DNA of 64,000 nt from Bacteroidales bacterium. Lineage in GTDB: Bacteria; Bacteroidota; Bacteroidia; Bacteroidales; Muribaculaceae. The position numbers and the translations under genes were made by a program. Below the pieces are notes generated by a model. It saw nothing but the letters and a program-made list of their open reading frames with translations. It was not told where the DNA came from and did not search any database. Location: the NCBI GenBank assembly GCA_015061055.1, contig SUXH01000002.1, positions 124,001 through 188,000 of the forward strand, written 5' to 3'. Shown here one piece after another: positions 8,351 to 14,150 of this stretch. The stretch's first letter is position 1, and each line of letters begins with the position of its first letter.

Positions 8351-8854
8351 ATGGGAGATTTTTATACCTCAACTCCTTCATTAACCATCGGAGAGGCTCT
8401 AAATAATGGTACAAGCAAATTGTTGACATTTGAAGGGCGTGCAAGACGGTCTGAATTTTGGTGGATGAAATTTATTGCTTTTGTTGTAAGTTGTGTACTT
8501 ACCCCGTTGGCAGGATTTGTAATGGAGATATTGATGATACCAATTACAGTGAGACGATTACACGATACAGGCAATAGTAGTTGGTGGGTATTAGTTGGTT
8601 TTTTGCTTAATGCGTTATTCATTGGGCTATTATTGTACGATTATTTTAGCATAATATTTTTCTATAGAGATGAATTTATTAATGCTAATCAAAGTGTTTT
8701 TGATATAATATCTAAATATATCATACTTGGGATATTTAATTGCATTTATGGCATTATGATGCTTCTGCTATTGTGTAAAGATAGCGATGCTTACGAAAAC
8801 CAATATGGTGAATCTCCTAAATATGTCTTTGATAAAAACTCTGTAGATGAGTGA
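8351..8854 (+). CDS. DUF805 family membrane protein
   Basis: A 167-residue membrane protein starting 3 bases after the GltA-type gene. The N-terminal LTFEGRARRSEFWW and the later RRLHDTGNSSWW are the conserved motifs of DUF805. Three to four hydrophobic segments follow each motif. Family function is unknown. The codon use is more AT-rich than in the preceding flavoprotein genes. Transcription probably ends at the hairpin centred on 8890. Confidence 0.82.
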   Translation: MGDFYTSTPSLTIGEALNNGTSKLLTFEGRARRSEFWWMKFIAFVVSCVLTPLAGFVMEILMIPITVRRLHDTGNSSWWVLVGFLLNALFIGLLLYDYFSIIFFYRDEFINANQSVFDIISKYIILGIFNCIYGIMMLLLLCKDSDAYENQYGESPKYVFDKNSVDE

Positions 8855-10380: not shown

Positions 10381-10411
10381 TTTGTAGATTTGAAAAAAAT
10401 GCGTACCTTTG
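10381..10411 (+). promoter_or_regulatory. Promoter of the SRP RNA gene
   Basis: TTTG (10381-10384) and TACCTTTG (10404-10411) are separated by 19 bases, an exact match to the Bacteroidota consensus TTTG-N19/20-TAnnTTTG. The predicted RNA start near 10416 coincides with the first paired base of the SRP RNA. Confidence 0.85.
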
Positions 10412-10416
10412 CAGTC

Positions 10417-10513
10417 GGGTAAGTCCTATACGGCCAGCTCCTTGTCAACTCCCCCAGGTCTTGACCGAAGCAAGGGCAGCAGGTTGTAGCGGCGCGATGT
10501 AGTAAGCTTGCCC
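10417..10513 (+). ncRNA. ffs: Signal recognition particle RNA (4.5S type)
   Basis: About 97 nt. The ends pair (GGGTAAG at 10417-10423 with CTTGCCC at 10507-10513), and the middle has the domain IV signature AGGTCTTGACCGAAGCA followed by AGGGCAG, aligning with the E. coli GGAAGCAGCCAAGGCAG region that binds Ffh. The apical loop reads GGT-CTTG-ACC and not the usual GGAA tetraloop. A T5 stretch at 10514-10518 follows, and the tRNA-Thr gene begins at 10519. Confidence 0.85.
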
Positions 10514-10518
10514 TTTTT

Positions 10519-10592
10519 GCCTCTTTAGCTCAGTTGGCCAGAGCACGTGATTTGTAATCTCGGGGTCGTTGGTTCGAATCCGACAAGAGGCT
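10519..10592 (+). tRNA. tRNA-Thr (UGU)
   Basis: Cloverleaf: acceptor GCCTCTT (10519-10525) pairs AAGAGGC (10585-10591); D stem GCTC/GAGC; anticodon loop TTTGTAA with anticodon TGT; T arm GTTGG-TTCGAAT-CCGAC. CCA is not encoded. The anticodon stem CGTGA/TCTCG has one central T-T mismatch. It starts 5 bases after the SRP RNA and has no promoter of its own that I can see. Confidence 0.92.
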
Positions 10593-11640: not shown

Positions 11641-11649
11641 AAAAATATT

Positions 11650-12045
11650 ATGACATCAAATAAAATTTTAGATACTTTATATACAGACTCTACTATAATT
11701 TCTAAGGAAATTACGTTAGAAACTTTATATAATGAAATCGAAATCATTAAAGACACATTAGCTTCTGTAGCAACAAACACAGAACCTTCTACATTTCTGT
11801 GGGTAGATTCATCAATTTCCAACAATACAATTGGCTTAATTGCCGCCATTTTTGGAATAGTAGCTACTTTTTTTGGATATTTAGGCTACAAATATCAAAA
11901 AATATCATCTGAAGAGTTAAAAAAAATGGTTCCTTTGGGGCAGCCCTTTTTCGGCGGTGAATTAATTTTCACCGCCGAATTTGTTTATTTACAATATGTT
12001 AGGTCGTTAGATTGTGAAACGACTTTTCTTGCAATAATCGCTTAA
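11650..12045 (+). CDS. Orphan small membrane protein, possibly 3' truncated
   Basis: A 131-residue unrecognised protein starting 9 bases after the YeiH gene. It has an acidic N-terminal region, one hydrophobic segment (about 60-82, GLIAAIFGIVATFFGYLGY) and a short charged stretch SSEELKKM. The last roughly 35 codons read through a perfect palindrome at 11951-11978 and look unlike protein-coding sequence, so the natural gene may once have been longer and been cut near 11930. AT content is higher than in the neighbouring conserved genes. Confidence 0.45.
   Translation: MTSNKILDTLYTDSTIISKEITLETLYNEIEIIKDTLASVATNTEPSTFLWVDSSISNNTIGLIAAIFGIVATFFGYLGYKYQKISSEELKKMVPLGQPFFGGELIFTAEFVYLQYVRSLDCETTFLAIIA
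11951..11978 (+). terminator. Perfect 11-bp hairpin with T-rich tail
   Basis: 11951-11961 pairs perfectly with 11968-11978 (loop TTAATT), followed by ATTTGTTTATTT. It would work as a terminator for the YeiH transcript. It lies inside the reading frame of the preceding orphan gene, which is unusual and supports the idea that the end of that frame is not native. Confidence 0.6.
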
Positions 12046-12065
12046 ACCGTAATATTACTTATTGA

Positions 12066-12083
12066 GTGTAGTCTTCTATGTAG
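12066..12083 (+). repeat. 18-bp direct repeat, left copy
   Basis: GTGTAGTCTTCTATGTAG occurs here and identically at 12996-13013. The two copies enclose a 912-base unit with its own promoter, a structured RNA, a small secreted protein gene and a terminator. Confidence 0.85.
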
Positions 12084-12102
12084 TCTAAATTAACACCAAT
12101 TA

Positions 12103-12133
12103 GTTGAACTTTTCAAAAAAATACTTAACTTTG
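12103..12133 (+). promoter_or_regulatory. Consensus promoter upstream of the structured RNA
   Basis: TTG (12104-12106) and TAACTTTG (12126-12133) are 19 bases apart, an excellent match to the Bacteroidota promoter. The predicted start near 12138 puts the whole rod-like RNA fold in the transcript. Confidence 0.75.
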
Positions 12134-12178
12134 TAGAAACATTAAACATTTTGCCTATGAAACATTGCGTATAATTTG

Positions 12179-12381
12179 ATACGCACATTTTAGACATATT
12201 GAAAAAGCGTTTTAGCTTTATTCTGTCATTTCGAAAGTTTGGCGACTAATGAATACCGACAAGAATACTGCAAAAATGCTCGCACGTAACGGTGCGGGCT
12301 TTTGGTTATTCTGTCGGTAGGTTACGCCAAACACCTTGAAATGCGGATACACTAAAAGTACCGCGCTTTTTTTGTGCGTAT
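12179..12381 (+). ncRNA. Long rod-like structured RNA, unassigned
   Basis: Read inward, the nested complementary segments are: ATACGCAC 12179-12186 with 12374-12381; AAAAAGCG 12202-12209 with 12364-12371; TTTTAG 12210-12215 with 12352-12357; CATTTC 12227-12232 with 12338-12343; GTTTGGCG 12237-12244 with 12325-12332; TACCGACA 12254-12261 with 12312-12319; GCTCGCAC 12278-12285 with 12292-12299. The apical loop is GTAACG. Internal loops of about 11/8 and 9/5 bases interrupt the rod. The 5' arm of the outermost helix can instead form a local hairpin (12166-12172 with 12179-12185). A T7 run at 12367-12373 follows the 3' arm. It could be a free small RNA or the leader of the gene at 12459. I recognise no named family with certainty. 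Confidence 0.65.
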
Positions 12382-12458
12382 TTGTTAAAGTCATTCAAGG
12401 TACAACGGAGTAACCGAAAAGCCGTCAAGTGAGTAGGGAATATTAATAATTATGAAAT

Positions 12459-12833
12459 ATGAAAAAATATCTTTTAATAATGCTTGCATGCTTTGGGATG
12501 ATCTTTACAGCTAATGCTGATGGAAGAAAAACTTGTCCCGTATACAATTCACAATATACAGCAACTGTAGCCCATGGCTCTACAATGGTTTCTGGAGATA
12601 GTCCTTATGTAACCATAATCGTTGAGGGTACTAAAGAGGCTCTCGGTTATGGAGATCAAGTTACAGTCTGGGTGAATGCATTAGATCGTTCAACTGGGTG
12701 TATTGTAGAAACAATCGAAGTAAGTGTAAGTGTTAAAGGTGGTAAAACCAGCGGTTTGGCTCAAAAAGCCTTTCGCAAACTCAAAGAAGGCGTATTTTAT
12801 AATGTAAGTATTGATAGCGCATCATGTAAATAA
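12459..12833 (+). CDS. Small secreted protein of unknown function
   Basis: A 124-residue protein with a clear Sec signal peptide (MKKYLLIMLACFGMIFTANA, cleavage before DGRK). The mature part is about 104 residues of beta-rich sequence with three Cys (in RKTCPV, STGCIV and SASCK at the C-terminus) and no motif I recognise. It lies between the two 18-bp repeats, 78 bases after the structured RNA, and is followed by a hairpin terminator. An out-of-frame ATG at 12452, 7 bases upstream, could interfere with initiation. No Shine-Dalgarno sequence is evident, which is usual in this phylum. Confidence 0.7.
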   Translation: MKKYLLIMLACFGMIFTANADGRKTCPVYNSQYTATVAHGSTMVSGDSPYVTIIVEGTKEALGYGDQVTVWVNALDRSTGCIVETIEVSVSVKGGKTSGLAQKAFRKLKEGVFYNVSIDSASCK

Positions 12834-12846
12834 AACCGTATAATAA

Positions 12847-12887
12847 GTGGCGTATGTAGTGAACCGTGTAGTTTCTTCATACGCCAC
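12847..12887 (+). terminator. Hairpin terminator after the small secreted protein gene
   Basis: A perfect 10-bp stem, GTGGCGTATG (12847-12856) with CATACGCCAC (12878-12887), closes a 21-base loop. The T tract after it is weak. The loop contains CCGTGTAGT, which partly resembles the 18-bp repeat. Confidence 0.65.
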
Positions 12888-12955
12888 CTTTGTTCATTTG
12901 CAATACATCTTCGAAAGATGCCCTGTTTCAGCGGTTTACTTTCAAAAGTTTTATT

Positions 12956-12963
12956 TACCTTTG
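12956..12963 (+). promoter_or_regulatory. -7 promoter element (TACCTTTG)
   Basis: TACCTTTG matches the consensus and precedes the right 18-bp repeat and the orphan gene at 13131. The -33 region (GGTTTAC near 12934) is only a partial match. The rest of 12888-13130 holds the right repeat and no other recognisable feature. Confidence 0.45.
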
Positions 12964-12995
12964 CATTTGTAGTTTTTGGCTTAATTACGACTTCC

Positions 12996-13013
12996 GTGTA
13001 GTCTTCTATGTAG
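12996..13013 (+). repeat. 18-bp direct repeat, right copy
   Basis: Identical to 12066-12083. Its last three bases, TAG, are the stop that bounds the open frame running into the orphan gene at 13131. Confidence 0.85.
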
Positions 13014-13130
13014 GATTTCGCAATTTTCGTAAAGACTAACACTGAAAATCAATCAGTTAAAAATAAAAAGCATAGTCCTGTAAGAGCTCCTCTTCTTCCT
13101 ATTGTAAAAAAACTTTATGATAACTATATT

Positions 13131-14039
13131 ATGCTCGTATTAATATATGGAAACACAAAATATACTCCTAAAGAACATACTGAAGATGAATTCGATCCAG
13201 AATACAAACATCTGTATTTTGACGAAATCATACAATCCTTTGAACTCCCTATTGATATATTTGATTTAAGTAAATTCGAGAAATATAACGATAAAGAAAT
13301 ATATAACTTTGCTGTTAAACTAAAATTAAGATGGAACGAATATAATCAAGCACTAAAAATTACTATCCAAGAATTAAAAGATGACTATATTGGCGAGGTT
13401 TCTTTTCAAAACATTTCAGATCTTACAGAATCTTTAGCTTATTATATTTTTGAATTTGACGATCTTATTAATCAAGTAGAGTCTAAACAATATAACACTC
13501 CTTACTTTCAAAATCAATTAGAAATTAATTTCAAAGAAGACGTAATCTTCTTATTTATCAATTCCATTGAAAATTTGAGAAATAACACCCCTTCTACATT
13601 TGATATTATCAATCAGGATGACACATTCTTCTCGTTCTGTAGCTTCACTAACAACAACACTAATAATATTACTATTAATAATTTAATACAACGAACACAT
13701 CCTTCCAAATATAAAGATTACCTTACACAACCAATATCAATAAAAACATATCTCGAACAACCAAATATTAATTCAGCTTTATCAACAATCGAAGAATTAC
13801 ACAACCAAATAAATTCCCCTAATCAGTCTCAGAAAAAGTTACTCAACTCATTAACTGATATTTTTGGACAACATTTAGTCGATACACTTGACAAATTTTA
13901 TACATCAGGGGAAGTCAATTATGATAACATCATAGGTTACGATATTGCATTTCGAATCTCCAAATTGAAAGTTGATTATATCGAATGGGATCAATTGTAT
14001 TCAGAAATATCTCGTATACGCTATTATCAAAATCATTAA
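13131..14039 (+). CDS. Orphan 302-residue protein, AT-rich, possibly 5' truncated
   Basis: A soluble, acidic, Asn/Ile/Lys/Glu-rich protein with no signal peptide, no transmembrane segment and no motif I recognise. The DNA is markedly more AT-rich than the core genes, suggesting acquisition. The frame stays open for 117 bases upstream of ATG 13131, back to the TAG at 13011-13013, and the encoded residues (for example SPVRAPLLPIVKKLYDNY) look like genuine protein although no ATG, GTG or TTG starts them. The original N-terminus may have been lost. It converges with metH. Confidence 0.6.
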   Translation: MLVLIYGNTKYTPKEHTEDEFDPEYKHLYFDEIIQSFELPIDIFDLSKFEKYNDKEIYNFAVKLKLRWNEYNQALKITIQELKDDYIGEVSFQNISDLTESLAYYIFEFDDLINQVESKQYNTPYFQNQLEINFKEDVIFLFINSIENLRNNTPSTFDIINQDDTFFSFCSFTNNNTNNITINNLIQRTHPSKYKDYLTQPISIKTYLEQPNINSALSTIEELHNQINSPNQSQKKLLNSLTDIFGQHLVDTLDKFYTSGEVNYDNIIGYDIAFRISKLKVDYIEWDQLYSEISRIRYYQNH

Positions 14040-14150
14040 TTAATCAATAATATTCTAATTATTATACCATTTTGAGATTTTCATTCTAACGTAAATTGCC
14101 ATAAGCGACAACTCTAAATATTATGTCAAAAATTTAAAGCATTTCATTTA

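Follow-up and report, generated by a model that had tools for sequence, protein, structure and literature searches.

Does the long rod-like RNA that can be folded in front of a secreted-protein gene in a 64,000-nucleotide stretch of Bacteroidales DNA (the whole of which is called the window hereafter) act as a stand-alone RNA, or as a leader of the gene behind it? Bacteroidota are dominant in animal guts, and their translation starts are independent of Shine-Dalgarno pairing. The initial annotation of this locus offered both readings, the former as an RNA recalling 6S RNA and the latter as a switch-like leader, and it contained neither the Px helix, nor the start-stop ORF (12157-12174), nor the DUF805b-like element (12405-12439) described below. 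With these included, the promoter is followed on the + strand of the window by the start-stop ORF, the pseudoknotted rod, the DUF805b-like element and finally the secreted-protein gene (Table 1). We lean towards the reading that the secreted-protein gene at 12459 has the RNA from about 12140 onward as its 5' leader, and that this leader belongs to a large, uncatalogued family of such RNAs.

Table 1. Coordinates of the features around the rod RNA (window numbering)
Feature	Position	Strand	Remarks
-7 promoter box TAACTTTG (TAnnTTTG), Bacteroidota type	12126..12133	+	from sequence
Start-stop ORF, ATG AAA CAT TGC GTA TAA	12157..12174	+	conserved GCCT in front
Local 5' hairpin GCGTAT/ATACGC	12167..12184	+	alternative to P1; in minimum-energy fold
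P1 5' strand ATACGCAC	12179..12186	+	partner 12374-12381
P2 5' strand AAAAAGCG	12202..12209	+	partner 12364-12371; doubles as 5' arm of local hairpin with 12215-12219
Rod	12227..12343	+
Rod H3	12227-12232/12338-12343	+
Rod H4	12237-12244/12325-12332	+
Rod H5	12255-12260/12313-12318 and 12263-12267/12307-12311	+
Rod apical hairpin	12278-12285/12292-12299	+
Px 5' strand GTACC	12358..12362	+	just before P2 3' strand
P2 3' strand, CGC and T7 run	12364..12373	+
P1 3' strand GTGCGTAT	12374..12381	+	partner 12179-12186
Px 3' strand GGTAC	12399..12403	+	about 20-45 nt behind T run in homologues
DUF805b-like cis element (RF02914)	12405..12439	+	28.1 bits, E 7.4e-6
124-aa ORF with signal peptide	12459..12833	+	gene behind leader
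Hairpin terminator GGCGTATG...CATACGCC	12843..12890	+	kept in paralogous unit; aligned with L002 and L058

Structure and covariation of the rod RNA

The seven nested complementary segments that the initial annotation had reported over 203 nt (12179-12381) are all present in the sequence, and the promoter that it had claimed (TAACTTTG), the T7 run (12367-12373) and the ORF were found at their places. Folding of 12135-12458, which it had proposed as a check, gave -93.9 kcal/mol compared with -68.6 +/- 4.8 kcal/mol for shuffled sequences (z -5.25), with none of 100 dinucleotide shuffles being equally good. The minimum-energy fold keeps the inner five helices and forms local hairpins instead of the outer two.

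Compensatory changes, named in the same annotation as the kind of support to look for, were found in 21 close homologues, where 21 of 68 pairs had changed on both sides. Standard pairs account for 95.5% of the pair cells in this set, a level that none of 500 shuffles reached, and pairing falls to 31-47% when the partner is shifted by 1-3 columns. H4 is invariant among these 21 copies, most members having been retrieved by a pattern inside H4, a bias from which a set of 94 diverse copies (median identity 0.59) is free. In the alignment of these 94 copies, most positions of H3, H4 and H5 have 0-3 mispairs and draw on three or four kinds of Watson-Crick pair (one position, for example, has GC 35, AT 27, CG 21 and TA 6), a diversity of pair types far beyond the reach of fitting even though the alignment was fitted to the covariance model and is hence biased towards it. 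Because G-U cells number 713 and A-C cells 48 in the same alignment, the RNA is read from the + strand. The rod is a real, large RNA structure that has been conserved through massive compensatory change. Amid these changes, the internal-loop letters A52 and A53 and their counterparts A221, C222 and C223 (alignment columns) are 96-100% conserved in the 94 copies, with AA and ACC facing each other across the unpaired loop below H4.

The outer helices were examined by exchanging strands among 152 homologues. For P1, matched strands scored 13.9 and swapped strands 10.9 (max 11.4). P2 has a few compensatory changes, from A-U to G-C and the reverse, and barely passes this test because its letters hardly vary. 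The T run is kept across the family, its U residues pairing with the A run of P2, and the local GCGG/CCGC hairpin that precedes it in the window is not kept. A classical intrinsic terminator or transcription attenuator was rejected, GCGG/CCGC being missing in the second copy of the window genome (L002) and in a homologue from another genus (L014).

A pseudoknot helix spanning the T run

An eighth helix, Px, was recognized between the segment just before the P2 3' strand and a segment behind the T run. In the exchange test with 152 homologues, the mean complementary run was 4.84 for true partners and 3.89 (max 4.09) over 500 exchanges, and the two strands co-vary as GTTCC/GGAAC, AGCTCC/GGAGCT, GCACC/GGTGC, TTGTCC/GGACAA, AAGTCCC/GGGACTT and TTAGCCC/GGGCTAA. 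Comparison of the homologues thus establishes Px as a pairing of the pseudoknot. Px crosses both P1 and P2; should the three helices form together, the result would be a pseudoknot of the H type whose loop contains the rod. In the leader reading, this pseudoknot would end immediately ahead of the DUF805b-like element and of the start codon at 12459.

Distribution of the family

The window genome carries a second copy with 87% identity (L002) and a distant third one in front of a membrane-protein gene, while L014 was found via a DUF805b search. When one genome per species was scanned with a pattern, copies turned up in metagenome-assembled genomes labelled Rikenellaceae, Alistipes, Bacteroidaceae, Paraprevotella, Prevotellaceae and Muribaculaceae. 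Searching with a covariance model built from 21 copies (172 positions, 55 pairs) located the rod in 92 genomes among 393 sampled from the order and in 89 among 397 from the family, with up to 7 copies per genome in these samples, and in 15 further genomes, all outside the order, among 345 genomes sampled across the phylum. Altogether, 154 rod copies were collected with their flanks. Rfam 15 contains no family that matches the rod, be it the window copy or those at 36 other family loci; weak matches in the region to Thr_leader, Fusobacteriales-1 and others were far below the cut-offs and taken as chance. Nothing on DUF805b or on the rod family was found in a literature search whose reach stopped short of supplementary tables and much subscription literature. 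The best reading of the rod is a large, uncatalogued family of structured leader RNAs in gut and environmental Bacteroidota. RNAs of this size that are absent from Rfam and show such deep covariation are rare, and the rod is common, occurring in about a quarter of the sampled species of the order.

Among the copies from outside the order (L210-L224, probably Flavobacteriales), the Px partner and the exported gene are often missing, and some possess a GCCTATG-NNN-TAA-like start-stop behind the rod, not before it.

Promoter and start-stop reading frame

In 68 of 92 homologues, the 75 nt ahead of the start-stop ATG contain a TAnnTTTG box, compared with 10 of 92 when control windows placed further upstream are examined. 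The box is mostly 22-34 nt away from this ATG, a spacing expected for a start codon. Judging from the box, transcription would begin near 12140. Behind the box stands GCC(T/A)ATG. Following the GC(C)xATG motif, an in-frame stop occurs within 6 codons in 89 of 90 non-identical copies, compared with 35 and 49 copies when either of the remaining frames is read, and these counts are not probabilities because the copies are related by ancestry and hence not independent. The frame holds despite its variable length, the stop coming after 0 to 6 codons, and the ATG-to-TAR distances follow a three-base period (20, 57, 40 and 31 copies at 0, 3, 6 and 12 nt vs. mostly 4-20 elsewhere). TAA serves as the stop in 59 copies, TAG in 32 and TGA in 1. 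The GCC-ATG motif is missing in about 60 of 150 homologues, and ATG-NNN-TAR is still found in 16 of 59 copies without it. These regularities show that the start-stop ORF has been conserved as a reading frame. A ribosome could initiate at AUG 12157 and would be forced to stop within a few codons. Its second codon varies (AAA, GAA, AAG, ATA, GTA, ACA and others), indicating that no amino acid is read by it. A pairing between GCCT and the AGGU conserved in the rod was considered and rejected, as it is broken in the GCCA members.

Genes behind the leader and the DUF805b-like element

Nearly all homologues are followed by a co-oriented ORF within about 50-100 nt, the median distance from the T run to its start being 72 nt. 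Under a strict rule requiring a signal peptide or a lipobox, 102 of 146 downstream genes (70%) encode exported proteins, compared with 67 of 235 (29%) background genes taken from the window and other loci (Fisher p 3e-15); a looser signal-peptide rule used at first had given 78% against a background of 53%, and the stricter one was therefore adopted. This comparison demonstrates an association of the rod RNA with exported-protein genes. The downstream genes are diverse and some are not exported. Eight of nine downstream proteins tested had no Pfam family, the remaining one being a BspA-type leucine-rich-repeat protein. The 12459-12833 protein has no Pfam family and shows no relationship to the one encoded behind the paralogous leader (best BLASTP match 14 aa, E 0.051). 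Read by eye, the downstream products are mostly small exported proteins with no recognizable reverse transcriptase, and a retron ncRNA (msr-msd) was rejected on the basis of this reading, no reverse transcriptase being seen beside the RNA. Position and co-oriented, export-enriched ORFs behind the homologues support the leader hypothesis of the initial annotation, and the RNA quite probably acts in cis on the gene behind it, judging from position, strand and Px.

Between Px and the start codon, ending 19 nt before the ATG at 12459, sits the DUF805b-like element. Its score and that of the paralogue copy (31.5 bits) do not reach the 35.6-bit gathering threshold of RF02914, and it is likely a divergent relative of DUF805b, the relationship being confined to this 3' element of the leader. 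A regular-expression count placed this 3' motif behind 22 of 37 close and 4 of 117 distant homologues. DUF805b (RF02914) and DUF805 (RF03081) of clan CL00115 are likewise cis elements before start codons in Bacteroidales; however, at 35 and 68 nt, respectively, and with one short stem, their models contain neither rod, pseudoknot nor start-stop ORF. DUF805b alone is common in the order, usually directly after a promoter and without the rod. In L003-L018, up to 21 weak or strong RF02914 matches per genome precede varied genes, including those of bacteriocin-like and secreted peptides, beyond those of DUF805 proteins. At L088 (1501-1865), the rod is followed by a DUF805 RNA (RF03081, 61 bits) inside a script-called ORF, a second case in which the rod and a member of the DUF805 clan occur together. 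A candidate DUF805-type membrane protein gene, its domain read from the sequence, lies 4 kb upstream in the window (8351-8854); a link between it and the DUF805b element is probably coincidence.

A possible ribosome-gated switch

The initial annotation had also suggested a pairing switch. The alternative pairings stood, in that ATACGC(AC) of the + strand can pair with 12167-12172 or with 12374-12381, so that a pairing switch may exist. In the 21 close homologues, the local 5' hairpin has 94.3% of its cells paired and zero double-sided changes. The local fold of the window RNA (-93.9 kcal/mol) and the fold with P1/P2 forced (-93.6 kcal/mol) are 0.3 kcal/mol apart in an energy model that ignores the pseudoknot, and removing 37 nt from the 5' end, as a ribosome-sized mask, flips the predicted fold to P1/P2. 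Among 94 homologues, removal of the 5' end changed the number with the local fold from 34 to 5 and that with P1 from 62 to 67. Because 62 of the 94 already favour P1 in the full fold, a switch might hold for only part of the family.

That the RNA has two states between which a ribosome at the start-stop ORF decides is, on these fold predictions, possible but doubtful. According to such a model, with the start-stop ORF occupied, the local 5' hairpin would be held open and ATACGCAC would be free to close P1/P2 and the pseudoknot. With the start-stop ORF empty, the local hairpins would form. A ribosome parked or terminating there might thus act as a latch that decides between local hairpins and the pseudoknotted rod. 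That the start-stop ORF is such a latch throughout a phylum-wide family is a tentative and rather unlikely proposal. If it were true, synthesis of many exported proteins would track the state of translation rather than a metabolite or an amino acid, ribosomes would have a new way to gate genes, and surface-protein control in Bacteroidota would be testable by simple reporters. The rod family ties exported-protein genes to a long rod with a pseudoknot and to a minimal reading frame.

Alternative explanations

Could the rod instead act in trans, as an RNA about 200-235 nt long with its end at the T run, the exported gene being a neighbour or reached by read-through? Its own promoter, the T run, the multi-copy paralogues and those members outside the order that have no immediate exported gene or Px partner are all in keeping with this. 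However, the covarying Px extends about 20-45 nt past the T run, so that the functional fold includes RNA behind it; there is no conserved terminator hairpin ahead of the T run, and the export bias of the downstream genes is strong. We therefore hold a stand-alone RNA to be improbable. The 6S RNA likeness raised in the initial annotation was not supported: although 6S RNA is likewise a long rod with internal loops, 11950-12560 matched neither RF00013 nor 6S-Flavo (RF01685) even with E up to 10, the 36 other loci of the family gave no match to 6S models either, and the rod differs in being pseudoknotted, linked to downstream genes and present in up to 7 copies per genome. The paralogous FopS/GibS sRNAs of Bacteroides are likewise a multi-copy Bacteroidales family behind their own promoters (PMC11697453). 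FopS is described as a single-stranded 5' seed followed by a terminator hairpin (PMC11697453), and an sRNA of this kind was rejected by the published description, the rod RNA being a rod with a pseudoknot.

In parts, the leader resembles riboswitches and uORF-controlled leaders. A ligand-sensing riboswitch would take the invariant loops around H4 (AA/ACC and GGU) as its pocket and the pseudoknot as its expression platform, and such a design suits unpaired letters that stay invariant (AA/ACC 96-100%) amid fully covarying helices, a pseudoknot that adjoins the gene start and several copies per genome. By contrast, the downstream genes have export in common and no pathway, suggesting no ligand, and a start-stop ORF is not a usual component of riboswitches, leaving this reading with a small chance of being right. 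Leader-peptide attenuators such as the ilvB uORF motif (PMC11109978) likewise place a conserved in-frame start and stop before alternative folds, and a start and a stop in one frame ahead of the main ORF, by which uORF leaders are recognized, are indeed conserved here. The rod leader differs from them in having mostly 0-5 codons after the AUG, no amino-acid theme and diverse exported genes behind it.

Genomic context

The leader unit and two other small ORFs occupy about 2.5 kb between yeiH and metH (window 11641-14150). In both congeners, yeiH and metH are adjacent and no rod is found there, indicating that the leader unit is recent at this place. The two copies in the window genome have about 500 bp in front and 260 bp at the rear in common at 85-87% identity, with unrelated ORFs inside; across window 11945-12465 and 12845-13103, L002 and L058, the flanks are 76-87% alike around unrelated ORFs. 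A direct repeat, TGTAGTCTTCTATGTAG, lies at both unit ends, about 930 bp apart. The arrangement suggests, from its sequence, exchange or duplication of whole units.

One might accordingly ask if selection has kept the RNA as the constant front part of an expression cassette that can move or be exchanged and that carries varying secreted-protein genes. The shared flanks around unrelated ORFs, the insertion between genes that are adjacent in both congeners and the direct repeat at each end would agree with such a cassette; yet no transposase or integrase was seen, the flanks are shared in close relatives only while the RNA spans the phylum, and covariation at the RNA level would be left unexplained. 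We regard it as very improbable, and keep to the leader reading. A phage, plasmid or viral origin was rejected, with no plasmid match, one metagenomic phage record and none in three viral-contig pattern scans.

The unit ends of L002 (about 1330-1350 and 2495-2530) resemble the arms of a split inverted repeat (CAATTAGGGCAGTCCC ... GGGACTGCCCTAATTG), and those of L058 present a similar one, TAGGAGTTG(T/C)CT .... Judged from these ends, the unit may have entered a terminator hairpin, a resemblance that could be chance. Elsewhere in the window, a Bacteroidales small SRP RNA lies at 10410-10517, with a tRNA gene directly after it (10519-10592).
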